NCBI RefSeq assembly: GCF_003663885.1
Contig: NZ_RCCE01000006.1
Coordinates: forward strand, 62,001-126,000
Source: Litoreibacter meonggei
GTDB lineage: Bacteria; Pseudomonadota; Alphaproteobacteria; Rhodobacterales; Rhodobacteraceae
Direction of reading: 5' to 3'
DNA: 64,000 bases
Position numbers and translations under genes: made by a program
Notes under the pieces: generated by a model
Told to the model about the DNA's origin: nothing
Databases searched by the model: none
The model's input: the letters and a program-made list of their open reading frames with translations, nothing else
Part shown: positions 58,886-63,191 of the stretch, piece after piece
Layout: each line of letters opens with the position of its first letter
Numbering within the stretch: position 1 is the stretch's first letter

Positions 58886-59502
58886 CGTCGCTGGTCTATC
58901 TCGACTACGCGTCGGTCTTCGTCTTCGCCCTCACCGGCGCGCTGGTCGCCAGCCGCGCCCAGCTTGATATCGTGGGCTTCGTCTTCATCGCTTGCCTGAC
59001 TGCCGTGGGCGGTGGCACGGTCCGCGACGTGCTGCTCGACCGCCCCGTGTTCTGGATGGAGGAGCCGACCTTCATCATAGTCGCCTCCGTTGCAGCCTTC
59101 ATCGTGTTCTTCACCGCCCACCTGCTGGAATCCCGCTACCGCTCGATCTTGTGGATCGACGCGCTGGCGCTGGCCGTGGCCGTTCCCGCAGGGGTTGCGG
59201 CGGCGGTCGCAATGGATGCGACATGGCCCATCGTACTGATCATGGGCATCTCGACCGGCTGCTTCGGCGGCCTGATGCGCGACGTGGTCTGCAACGAGGT
59301 GCCGTTGGTCCTCAAACAAGGCGAGCTTTACGTCACCTGCGCCTTCGCAGGCGCGGGCGCTGCCGTGGGCTTGCTGGCCCTTGGCCAGCCCCTGCCCATA
59401 GCGCTCCTCGGCTGCGCCATCGTCACACTGGCCTTGCGCACCGGCTCCCTCGCCTTCGGCTGGAGCCTTCCCGTCTACAAAAGCCGACCGCCCCGCGTTT
59501 AG
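58882..59502 (+). CDS. TRIC-type (UPF0126) membrane channel
   Basis: A 206-residue membrane protein starting at 58882, overlapping the rnhA stop (ATGA). The two similar halves carry the family motif twice: [20 protein letters not shown] in the first repeat and [20 protein letters not shown] in the second, with about seven hydrophobic helices. Bacterial TRIC proteins conduct monovalent cations. Its stop overlaps the convergent fmt stop by four bases. Confidence 0.9.
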
Positions 59503-60407
59503 GAAAAGCGCTCCGGCGGCGTCCAACCTTGCGTCACAATCGCCGCGTCGGCGGCCTTCTTGCCCGCCCGTTGCAGCGTCAGGATCGAAACGGCCCCGTC
59601 GCCGGTGCCAACCAATAGCGCCCCGCCGGTCAGTTGCACCTCGCCCGCAGGAAGATCCTGCGCGACCGCAGCGGCCCGCAGGCATTTGACGCGCTCGCCC
59701 TCCGCCTCGGTCCACGCCCCCGGAAACGGCGACAGCCCATTAATCTGGCGCGCAATCTCGGCCGAGCTACACGTCCAGTCGATCCGCGCCTCTGCCTTGT
59801 CGATCTTGGCGGCGTAGGTCACGCCGTCCTCCGGCTGTGGCTCCGCCGCCAGCTCGTCCAGACGTGAAAGCGCGTCGACAATCATCCGCGCGCCTATGGC
59901 GCTCAGCCGGTCGTGCAATGCGCCCGTGGTCTCTGTAGCGCCGATGCCGGTCGCCTCACGCAGCAACACCGGCCCCGTGTCCAGCCCTGCCTCCATCTGC
60001 ATGATGCAGATGCCCGTCTCAGCATCCCCCGCCATGATGGCGCGATGGATCGGCGCGGCCCCGCGCCAGCGCGGCAACAACGAGGCGTGGATATTCAGGC
60101 ACCCCCGCTTCGGCGCGTCTAGCACGGCTTGCGGCAGGATCAGCCCGTAGGCCACGACCACCGCCACATCCGCGCCCAGCGCGGCGAACTCCTCTTGCTC
60201 GGCCGCGCCCTTCAGCGACACTGGATGGCGCACTACCAAGCCCAAGTCCTCGGCCCGCGCCTGCACAGGCGACGGTCGGTCCTTCTTGCCCCGTCCCGCA
60301 GGGCGCGGCGGTTGGGAATAGACGGCGACGATTTCGTGACCCGCCTCGACCACAGCCTCCAGAACCGGAACAGAAAACTCCGGCGTGCCCATAAAAACAA
60401 TTTTCAT
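59499..60407 (-). CDS. fmt: Methionyl-tRNA formyltransferase
   Basis: Fmt, 302 residues, which formylates initiator Met-tRNA with 10-formyl-tetrahydrofolate. Landmarks are [40 protein letters not shown] with the HASLLP catalytic region, [20 protein letters not shown] and the C-terminal OB-like domain. It is the last gene of the def-def-def-fmt unit, overlapping the deformylase-like gene by four bases. Confidence 0.97.
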
Positions 60408-60898
60408 CGCACCAGCTTCCTTGCCTTTTTCACCAGCATTCCCCGCTTGGTGCGGCTCAGGTGATCGAAGTACATCTTGCCCCGCAGGTGGTCGATCTGG
60501 TGCTGCACCGAGGTCGCCCAGAGCCCGACAAAATCGCGCTCCTCAACCTCACCCACCGCGTTCAAAAACCGAACCGTCACCGCGCGCGGCCGCTCGACCA
60601 CGGCCGAAACACCCGGCAAATTCGGGGACGCCTCGTCATGCTCCCGCATCTGCCCGCTGGCATGCAGCACCTCCGGGTTCGCCATCAACACAGCCTGCCC
60701 CCGCGCTTCCGACGCATCCACGACGGCCAGCCGCTGCATCACGCCGATCTGCACTGCCGCCAGCCCCACGCCGGGCATCGCGTCCATGGTCTCGACCATA
60801 TCGGCCCAGATTGCGCGGGTCTCGTCGGTGACCAACGCCACATCCGCCGCGACACTGCGCAAGCGCTTGTCGGGCCACATCACGAACGGGCGCTTCAT
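60404..60898 (-). CDS. Degenerate peptide deformylase paralogue
   Basis: A 164-residue protein plainly related to peptide deformylase over its full length, but with broken active-site motifs. Motif 1 is GVGLAAVQ (residues 43-50), almost normal. Motif 2, E-G-C-L-S in real enzymes, reads E-A-S-P-N (residues 89-93), so the metal-ligand Cys is Ser91. Motif 3, H-E-x-D-H, reads H-Q-I-D-H (133-137), so the catalytic Glu is Gln134. The two His ligands remain. Such a protein should not deformylate peptides; it may bind the ribosome exit site, nascent chains or another deformylase. The frame is intact and overlaps both neighbours by four bases, so it is under selection to stay open. Confidence 0.85.
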
Positions 60899-61350
60899 GC
60901 TTTATCCTCGTAATCCACGATCAGAACCCCGTCGAGATGGTCAATTTCGTGCAGCACGCAGGCCGCCGCGAAACCTTTGAACCCGCCCCGCCGCTGCGCG
61001 CCTTGCGCGTCGGTCCATGTCACCTCGATACGCTCGGGCCGCTCCACCCACACAGGATGGTCCGCTATCGACAGGCAGCCCTCCTCGTTGCGCTGCGTCT
61101 CGGGCGATCGTGACAGAATTTCGGGGTTGATCATCACAACAGGGCTTCGCTCCCCCTCTTTCCAGGTGCAGTCCATCACGAACAGCCGGATCAGCCGCCC
61201 CACCTGAGGCGCGGCCAGCCCACGCCCGGATGCGGCATACATCGTCTCGAACATCTCGGCGATCAGCCCGCCAAGCTCCGCTACGTCGAAAACCGGCGCG
61301 CATAACTGTCTCAGCCTCGGGTCGGGATGCTGCACAATCGGCAGGATCAT
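60895..61350 (-). CDS. def: Peptide deformylase, second copy
   Basis: A 151-residue deformylase. All three motifs are complete: GRGLAAPQ (residues 42-49), E-E-G-C-L-S with Cys92, and H-E-I-D-H (134-138). It is shorter at the C-terminus than the first copy and more divergent, with Arg43 in place of the usual Ile/Val in motif 1. It may be specialised. It overlaps the gene before and after it by four bases. Confidence 0.9.
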   Translation of the reverse strand: MILPIVQHPDPRLRQLCAPVFDVAELGGLIAEMFETMYAASGRGLAAPQVGRLIRLFVMDCTWKEGERSPVVMINPEILSRSPETQRNEEGCLSIADHPVWVERPERIEVTWTDAQGAQRRGGFKGFAAACVLHEIDHLDGVLIVDYEDKA

Positions 61351-61868
61351 CCGGCGCGGGCCATTTCGCGCTTCAGCTTGACCATCTTGCGGGTAATCAT
61401 CTGGCGTTTCAGCGGGCGCAGGTAGTCGATGAACAGCTTGCCCTCAAGGTGGTCGATCTCGTGCTGTACGCAGGTGGCCCACAGCCCGTCAAAGGTCTCT
61501 TCCTGCAACGCCCCGTCGCGGTCAATCCAGCGCACGGTCACGTCCGCAGGGCGGGTCACGTCGGCATATTGCTCGGGGATCGACAGGCAGCCCTCCTCGT
61601 AGGTGTTCTCTTCCTCCGACGAGGCGATAACCTCGGGGTTGAACATCACCAGCGGGCGGGGGCTTTCGCCCTCTTTCTTGATGCAGTCCAGCACGATCAG
61701 CCGGTCCATCACGCCGACCTGCGGCGCGGCCAGACCGATGCCCGGCGCGTCATACATGGTCTCCAGCATGTCGTCCGCCAGTTCCCGCAGCGCGTCCGAG
61801 ACGTCGACGACAGGTTTGGCCACTTTTTTCAGGCGCGGGTCGGGGTGGATCAGGATCGGGCGTTTCAT
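61347..61868 (-). CDS. def: Peptide deformylase, canonical copy
   Basis: A 173-residue deformylase starting at 61868 (MKRPILIHPDPRLKKVAKPV); the open frame upstream runs into non-coding sequence. The motifs are canonical: GIGLAAPQ (43-50), E-E-G-C-L-S with Cys94 and H-E-I-D-H (136-140), with QYADVTRPADVTVRW between. This is the likely housekeeping enzyme that removes the formyl group from nascent proteins, and the first gene of the def-def-def-fmt operon. Confidence 0.95.
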   Translation of the reverse strand: MKRPILIHPDPRLKKVAKPVVDVSDALRELADDMLETMYDAPGIGLAAPQVGVMDRLIVLDCIKKEGESPRPLVMFNPEVIASSEEENTYEEGCLSIPEQYADVTRPADVTVRWIDRDGALQEETFDGLWATCVQHEIDHLEGKLFIDYLRPLKRQMITRKMVKLKREMARAG

Positions 61869-62021
61869 GCCGCTCAGATAACCGTTCCCGCCCTTCGGAA
61901 CAAGAGCTTCGGGCCGAACTCCGCCCGACCAGAGCACACCATGATGGCATCTCTGATTTTGGCACTTGCAGCGCTTCGGGAATCCCGCGACCTTGCGCCC
62001 GATAACAAGGAGAACTGATCC

Positions 62022-63191
62022 ATGAGTTTCGACACCCCGATCGACCGCCGCGGCACCCATTCCTCCAAATGGGACAAGATGGAGGCGATATACGGCGTCT
62101 CCCCCGATGACGGCCTTGCAATGTGGGTGGCGGACATGGACTTCCGCCCGCCGCAATGTGTGCAGGACGCGGTCAAGGCGATGTACGAACACGGTGTCTA
62201 CGGCTACTACGGTGACGAAACCGCATATCGCGCGGCAATCCAGTGGTGGATGAAAAACCGCCACGGCTGGGCGCTGAACCCCGACCATATCTTCACCACC
62301 CACGGGCTGGTGAATGGCACGGCCATGTGCCTCGATGCGTTCACCAAACCCGGCGACGGTATCGTGCTGTTCACACCCGTCTACCACGCCTTCGCCCGCG
62401 TCATCAAAGCCGCAGGCCGCGACGTGGTGGAGTGTCAGCTGGTCAATTCGGACGGCCGCTACGAGATGGATTTCGACGCCTATGACGCGCAGATGACGGG
62501 CAAGGAGACCATGCTGATCCTGTGTTCGCCGCACAACCCCTGCGGGCGCGTCTGGACCAAAGCGGAACTGCAAGCCGTCGCCGCCTTCGCCAAACGCCAC
62601 GACCTCATTCTGGTGTCCGACGAAATCCACCACGACCTCGTCTACCCCAGCCACACGCATATCCCGATGGCAACCTTGCCGGGCATCGAGGACCGGCTAG
62701 TGATGATGACAGCGGCGACCAAGACCTTCAACATCGCGGGCTCTCACGCTGGCAATGTCATCATCGCGGACCCGGACCTGCGGGCCCGCTTCGCAAGCCG
62801 CATGGCCGCGATGGGCATCAGTGCCAACAGCTTCGGCCTGTTTATGGCCACCGCCGCCTATTCCCCCGAAGGGGCCGCGTGGGTTGACGCGCTGGTCGAC
62901 TATCTCGACACCAATCGCAAAATCTTCGACGCAGGGATCAACGCCATCCCCGGTCTTGCCTCCATGCAGATGGAATCAACCTATCTTGCTTGGGTCGATT
63001 TTTCCGGCACCGGCATGAGCCGCGCCGAGTTTACCAACCGCACGCAGGACACCGCCAAAATCGCCGCAAGCCACGGCCAGACCTTCGGCACGGGTGGCGA
63101 GGAGTTCATGCGCTTCAACATCGGCGCACCACGCGCGGTCATCGAAGATGCCGTCGCGCGCATGCAGACCGCGTTCGCGGACCTGCAATAA
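62022..63191 (+). CDS. MalY/PatB-type aminotransferase-like C-S lyase
   Basis: A 389-residue fold-type I PLP enzyme of the MalY/PatB group. The start MSFDTPIDRRGTHSSKWDKM and MWVADMDFRPPQCV are typical of the group; CSPHNPCGRVWTKAEL and VSDEIHHDLVYPSHTHIPMA follow, and the PLP lysine is in MTAATKTFNIAGSHAG (near residue 233). Enzymes of this group cleave C-S bonds (cystathionine beta-lyase activity), and in Roseobacter-group bacteria such genes are also linked to sulfur metabolism. AAGGAG lies about nine bases before the ATG. It is divergent from the def operon. Confidence 0.88.
   Translation: MSFDTPIDRRGTHSSKWDKMEAIYGVSPDDGLAMWVADMDFRPPQCVQDAVKAMYEHGVYGYYGDETAYRAAIQWWMKNRHGWALNPDHIFTTHGLVNGTAMCLDAFTKPGDGIVLFTPVYHAFARVIKAAGRDVVECQLVNSDGRYEMDFDAYDAQMTGKETMLILCSPHNPCGRVWTKAELQAVAAFAKRHDLILVSDEIHHDLVYPSHTHIPMATLPGIEDRLVMMTAATKTFNIAGSHAGNVIIADPDLRARFASRMAAMGISANSFGLFMATAAYSPEGAAWVDALVDYLDTNRKIFDAGINAIPGLASMQMESTYLAWVDFSGTGMSRAEFTNRTQDTAKIAASHGQTFGTGGEEFMRFNIGAPRAVIEDAVARMQTAFADLQ

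Follow-up and report, generated by a model that had tools for sequence, protein, structure and literature searches.

The window, a stretch of 64,000 nucleotides from Litoreibacter meonggei, carries on its minus strand the genes def1, def2, def3 and fmt in this order, and the sequence ATGA forms a 4-nt overlap at all three junctions (Table 1). A first-pass annotation of this DNA had described three tandem full-length deformylase genes together with fmt. This is borne out by the open reading frames and by the Pfam family PF01327, which matches Def1, Def2 and Def3 (for Def3 with 130.4 bits at a cut-off of 22.8). The four-base overlaps of def3 with both neighbours, noted at the same time, were found again as ATGA on either side. 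The annotation had further placed def3 between active deformylase genes and fmt. The gene does adjoin fmt, but it is the last of the def genes and lies between def2 and fmt, not between two active deformylase genes. In the genome to which the window belongs (3.95 Mb, 16 contigs) these three are the only peptide deformylase (PDF) matches. A promoter scan found no promoter; terminator-like matches were left out of the analysis. Upstream of def1 the reading frame stays open over a long distance, giving a 437-aa ORF (61347-62660), so that automatic start calling could overextend def1. Divergent from def1 there is an ORF on the plus strand (62022-63191) which we take to be aminotransferase-like.

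Table 1. Genes of the def1-def2-def3-fmt unit and features of Def3 (positions in the window)
Feature	Position	Strand	Description
def1, canonical deformylase	61347-61868	-	173 aa; GIGLAAPQ / EEGCLS / HEIDH; motifs intact, basic C-terminal tail
def2, second deformylase	60895-61350	-	151 aa; GRGLAAPQ / EEGCLS / HEIDH; motifs intact, without basic C-terminal tail
def3, catalytically degenerate PDF paralogue (putative pseudo-deformylase)	60404-60898	-	164 aa; GVGLAAVQ / DEASPN / HQIDH
fmt, methionyl-tRNA formyltransferase	59499-60407	-	TIGR00460 with 280.8 bits (cut-off 201.5); 4-nt overlap with the end of def3
Def3 motif II	60617-60634	-	residues 89-94, E-A-S-P-N-L replacing E-G-C-L-S-I
Def3 motif III	60488-60502	-	residues 133-137, H-Q-I-D-H replacing H-E-x-x-H
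Def3 basic C-terminal helix	60410-60454	-	residues 149-163 (predicted model); corresponds to the helix by which E. coli PDF docks on the ribosome

In PDF, Cys90, His132 and His136 are the metal ligands, Glu133 is the general acid/base, and the oxyanion hole is made up of the backbone NH of Leu91 together with Gln50. Aligned with E. coli PDF (numbered on a reference sequence that is identical to a PDB chain), Def3 carries the substitutions Cys90 to Ser, Leu91 to Pro, Ser92 to Asn, Cys129 to Ser and Glu133 to Gln. Two of these, Cys to Ser in motif II and Glu to Gln in motif III, had already been pointed out in the first-pass annotation, which had overlooked Leu91 to Pro (inside EGCLS) and Cys129 to Ser. 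Given the role of Leu91, its replacement would leave no oxyanion-hole NH at this position, since proline has none.

Except at position 92, these changes are fixed in the proteins collected. Ser90, Pro91, Ser129, Gln133 and Ala58 (E. coli numbering) were each present in 167/167 distinct Def3 proteins, and so were the retained residues Gly43, Gly45, Gln50, Glu88, His132 and His136. All 167 thus deviate from the motifs of active PDFs, with Ser90 and Pro91 in motif II (EGCLS) and with Gln133 in motif III (HQxDH instead of HExxH). Motif I (G-phi-G-phi-A-A-x-Q) is present, with Gly for Ala at position 47 in 14 and at position 48 in 9 of the 167. Position 92 is Asn in 154 proteins and Cys in 13; in these 13 the resulting Ser-Pro-Cys places a cysteine two residues off the lost metal ligand. 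The pocket positions 44, 86 and 97 are variable, and a conserved peptide ligand is therefore not favoured. Cys90, Leu91, Ser92 and Glu133 are retained in 194/194 distinct Def1 proteins. Among 79 distinct Def2 proteins the first three are retained in all and Glu133 in 78. The one Def2 that lacks the catalytic Glu (locus L140, genome G582) has HKLDH replacing HExDH and represents a second, isolated degenerate deformylase. Ser90 of Def3 is encoded by both serine codon families (AGY 122, TCN 45), and Gln133 by CAG (161) or CAA (6), one base from Glu. The mixed Ser90 codon families and the fixed Gln133 one base from Glu suggest that what is conserved is the residue and not just its nucleotide sequence.

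The labels Def1, Def2 and Def3 were assigned by means of the motifs, with identical proteins counted once and with broken or very short ORFs invisible to the caller. As the residue counts are circular on their own for this reason, independent checks were made. Each of the 162 loci L004-L165, found by similarity to Def3 or its profile and in part redundant, contains a labelled, open Def3. Ser90 or Gln133 occurred in 0/194 distinct Def1 and 0/79 distinct Def2 proteins. Three loci gave the order Def1-Def1-Def3, probably through a Def2 labelled as Def1.

The AlphaFold model of Def3 (mean pLDDT 93.2) shows the C-terminal helix at residues 149-163 of the window protein. Its best structure match is E. 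coli PDF 4az4 (Z 26.2, rmsd 1.6 over 163 residues, 39% identity), and the matches listed in the structure searches (50 per search) were all PDFs. Past motif III, the tail of Def3 has a net charge of +5 to +9 (median +7). A tail net charge of at least +4 was found in 167/167 Def3, 191/194 Def1 and 0/79 Def2 proteins. Together with the motifs, these charges indicate that Def1 combines chemistry and tail, that Def2 has the chemistry only and Def3 the tail only. According to the available parts of two papers (PMC8712518, PMC3130931), E. coli PDF docks by its C-terminal helix on L22, at the exit of the tunnel, and is in competition with MAP there. A ribosome-bound role of Def3, as suggested in the first-pass annotation, agrees with the basic tail of all 167 proteins; the docking itself we infer from this tail. 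Def3 passes the cut-off of the equivalog family TIGR00079 (119.9 bits, cut-off 103.95) and would be named as the enzyme by that rule; it stays below the cut-offs of NF001159 (119 vs 125) and NF009484 (131.1 vs 190).

For the estimation of selection, 18 non-overlapping pairs of related genomes were analysed with a home-made pairwise codon likelihood (not PAML), excluding from the medians pairs with dS outside 0.1-2.5 (3/18 for Def3). Median dN/dS was 0.053 for Def3 (15 pairs, maximum 0.087), 0.049 for Def1 (15 pairs), 0.082 for Def2 (5 pairs) and 0.061 for fmt (11 pairs). Between the window and its nearest relative the values were 0.062, 0.027, 0.082 and 0.105, respectively; two further Litoreibacter pairs were left out because of too high dS. 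Columns conserved in at least 95% of the sequences numbered 57 in Def1, 46 in Def3 and 37 in Def2. By these estimates, Def3 is under nearly the same selection as the active Def1. A recent decay of def3 in one strain, with homologues elsewhere keeping Cys and Glu, is excluded by the fixed residues and the selection data: in the genera examined the Def3 orthologues have Ser and Gln throughout. Def3 thus combines lost catalytic residues, purifying selection and orthology across genera, as expected of a pseudoenzyme under selection. The fixed residues and the low dN/dS give good support to the earlier suggestion that the gene is kept for a role without deformylase chemistry, and the same grade applies to the apparent catalytic loss and selection on the protein. 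Def3 is almost certainly maintained for a function.

In a tree calculated without the motif columns, 30 Def3 rows form one clade (SH-aLRT 99), as do 19 Def2 rows (99). The 87 rows that belong to the family are likewise united in one group (98). How Def1, Def2 and Def3 branch relative to one another is not resolved in this tree, which is a quick one of 107/460 rows without bootstrap, with 53/104 inner branches unresolved and Def1 not forming one clade. The simplest reading of these groupings would be a single old duplication inside the family behind Def3, not repeated decay.

Def3 is widespread in this group of bacteria. In a sample of near-complete genomes of the order it was detected in 146/149, with one match each at E <= 1e-50; even the weakest match (6.7e-70) has SPN and HQIDH. 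The three exceptions (G624, G663, G101) have one PDF each. The family was sampled with 198 genomes from 197 genera, not all of them complete, and 164 of these genomes have Def3. This number is obtained from 192 genomes with a PDF match (the other six have none) by subtracting 25 with a single match as well as G118, G136 and G157; G098 and G147, in which Def3 is truncated at the end of a contig, are counted among the 164. At least three PDF matches were counted by hand in 87/198 genomes, the fourth match of G052 being below the cut-off. The 25 genomes with a single PDF, along with G118 and G136, which have Def1 and Def2 without Def3, indicate that the role of Def3 is not indispensable. On a tree of 110 genomes that is weakly resolved, parsimony requires the presence of Def3 to change 17 times. 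Judged by gene content, Def3 is dispensable over evolutionary time.

In G118 (locus L226, genome 84% complete) and G136 (L182, 97% complete) Def1 and Def2 are followed by fmt, directly after Def2 in the former, and Def3 is missing; this is the reverse of the common arrangement with Def1 and Def3. In G157 (L229, 80% complete) Def2, Def3 and fmt were found in broken pieces, probably by assembly error because fmt looks broken, too.

Among 385 genomes of the class, a search at E <= 1e-55 yielded five matches, all in the family of the window and including its own genome, and none outside. In the phylum sample, 28/398 matched at E <= 1e-46, 27 of them in the family; the single match outside (G355) is an ordinary PDF with EGCLS and HEIDH. 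The thresholds of both searches would miss remoter degenerate PDFs. Scores in the phylum search were bimodal, with no match between 3.2e-75 and 4.4e-50. Named carriers of Def3 among the best 80 of 580 relatives belong to Litoreibacter (the nearest, 90% identity), Roseovarius, Gemmobacter, Cereibacter, Tabrizicola, Maritimibacter and Salipiger. Records under the names Cereibacter changlensis and Luteovulum azotoformans are among them. The family name used here rests on these named loci, and NCBI now puts several of the genera in Roseobacteraceae and Paracoccaceae. Only 1/989 matching plasmid records exceeded 60% identity, namely a 1.58-Mb replicon of Pseudorhodobacter turbinis. This plasmid-listed record (NZ_CP039965.1) has three matching places, and the Def3 relative at 1086142-1086612 shows 77% identity. 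For phage records the count was 0/155.

Compared with E. coli Def and with Def1, both type 1 PDFs, Def3 shares the fold, motif I, both metal His and the basic C-terminal tail. It differs, in all 167 proteins, in the substitutions at positions 90, 91, 129 and 133, in Asn or Cys for Ser92, and in Ala for Ile58. Inactive PDFs as such are a known kind. The available sections of Lamberioux et al. (2025, PMC12690207) describe as type 3 the accessory PDFs of S. aureus and S. pneumoniae and those of archaea and protists, which are weakly active or inactive and carry substitutions in motifs I and II; the authors doubt that motif changes always mean inactivity. Def3 resembles these in being an accessory PDF with altered catalytic motifs. 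Going by that description it is set apart from them, as it keeps motif I, alters motifs II and III and retains the basic tail of type 1. In a tree without type 3 sequences, Def3 falls among the PDFs of its own family. V. cholerae Def2 is described in the same sections as an accessory active PDF in which the C-terminal tail tied to ribosome association is diverged. The Def2 of the operon also diverges at its tail; the V. cholerae protein is active and resembles this Def2, not Def3.

Clustered PDF genes are reported there for 98.1% of Rhodobacterales reference species, with three genes in 62.5% of these, and the rationale for the clusters is called elusive (PMC12690207). The def clusters of our study are the same by order and arrangement. 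A uniformly degenerate member of the Rhodobacterales clusters is not mentioned in the available sections of that paper, and the accessible parts of the open-licence PMC papers searched contain no mention of an inactive PDF in these clusters.

The best explanation of these observations, which we consider about evenly balanced between right and wrong, is that Def3 is a family-wide pseudo-deformylase that docks at the ribosome and acts at the N-termini of nascent chains. Its parts differ in strength. Judging from the residues replaced, Def3 is very probably dead as a PDF. Docking on ribosomes is somewhat more probable than its absence, considering the charge of the tail. The mode of action, either competition for the site or non-hydrolytic holding, is a tentative proposal and rather less likely than not. 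The protein would have descended from a deformylase of its own family and would have retained its fold, its basic C-terminal tail and some of the pocket frame (Gly43, Gly45, Gln50, Glu88 and both metal His); its chemistry would have been removed by the replacement of the metal ligand Cys90, of Leu91 and of Glu133. By means of the basic helix Def3 could dock at the same tunnel-exit site as Def1, and would there either occupy the site or hold a formyl-Met N-terminus without hydrolysis. It might thereby time or shield the steps in which Def1, Def2 and Met aminopeptidase process N-termini. The faster evolution of Def3 than of Def1 in the nearest pair (0.062 vs 0.027) counts against this reading, and so do the variable pocket positions 44, 86 and 97, the genomes that manage without Def3, and the doubt of Lamberioux et al. 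(2025) that changed motifs always abolish activity.

Deformylase is an essential enzyme targeted by drugs, and paralogues of it are liable to be annotated as enzymes, as Def3 would be via TIGR00079. A presumably dead member that has become fixed throughout a large family of bacteria, and that has kept the putative docking tail but not the chemistry, bears on why Rhodobacterales cluster their deformylase genes. That such a look-alike is kept with much the same care as the working enzyme suggests a role at the start of protein maturation, and the regulation of N-terminal processing becomes testable through one gene.

Alternatively, Def3 might be an adaptor subunit which pairs with Def2, or with Def1 or Fmt, and provides ribosome anchoring or regulation. 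We regard this as unlikely. It would fit the complementary anatomy of Def2, with intact motifs and no basic tail, and Def3, putatively dead with a basic tail in every case. It would also fit the neighbourhood of the genes: def2 and def3 overlap by 4 nt in 65/76 cases (starts chosen by rule), and fmt starts at most 400 nt from the def3 stop in 150/167, overlapping def3 in 67/167. Among 110 genomes, in which those without Def3 are over-represented, 43 have Def2 and Def3, 41 Def3 alone, 24 neither and 2 Def2 alone (loci L222 and L229 were dropped from this table, and L225 was set as Def3-present by hand). However, about half of the genomes with Def3 are without a third PDF (at least three matches in 87/198, Def3 in 164/198), so Def2 cannot be the only partner of Def3, and G118 and G136 have Def2 without Def3. 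Corrected for kinship, the association of Def2 and Def3 gave median p values of 1 and 0.5, on 11 and 7 supported pairs. A strict dependence of Def2 on Def3 was suggested by the 24 genomes that lack Def3 and have one PDF each, a set that is partly circular as 22 were picked for a single PDF match and G624 and G663 for lacking Def3; it is broken by G118 and G136.

The replacement of HExxH by HQxxH is a classical substrate-trap change. Def3 could accordingly be thought of as a dedicated reader of formyl-methionine nascent chains, a ribosome-anchored substrate-holder that would mark, time or shield formyl-retaining proteins or pass them to an fMet/N-degron pathway. This more specific proposal is in our opinion decidedly improbable.

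It is very unlikely that Def3 is still a deformylase, one that does its work in the absence of the Cys ligand, with a different metal, at a low rate or under stress (for example oxidation). In favour of this are the two His ligands, Gln50 and the fold, all of which are retained, and the proposal in the available sections of Lamberioux et al. (2025, PMC12690207) that type 3 PDFs with deviating motifs could show activity in special circumstances. Nevertheless Cys90, Leu91 and Glu133 are each replaced in 167/167 proteins, while Def1 with intact motifs stays in the same operon.

A different enzyme, in which Ser90 beside the two His serves as a metal-free nucleophile on the old scaffold, is highly improbable as well. 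The invariance of Ser90, Ser129, Gln133 and the two His (167/167) would fit new chemistry at an altered site, but equally binding. But Pro91, given the role of residue 91, would remove an oxyanion-hole NH, and the operon suggests no substrate beyond formyl-Met metabolism.

That Def3 is a neutral duplication remnant in slow decay can practically be dismissed: its absence from some lineages and the broken pieces in G157, where assembly error is likely, would agree with it, but it is contradicted by the selection data, with dN/dS not above 0.087 in any of 15 pairs, by the fixed substitutions with mixed Ser codon families, and by the open Def3 in each of the 162 loci (some redundant) found by similarity to it.
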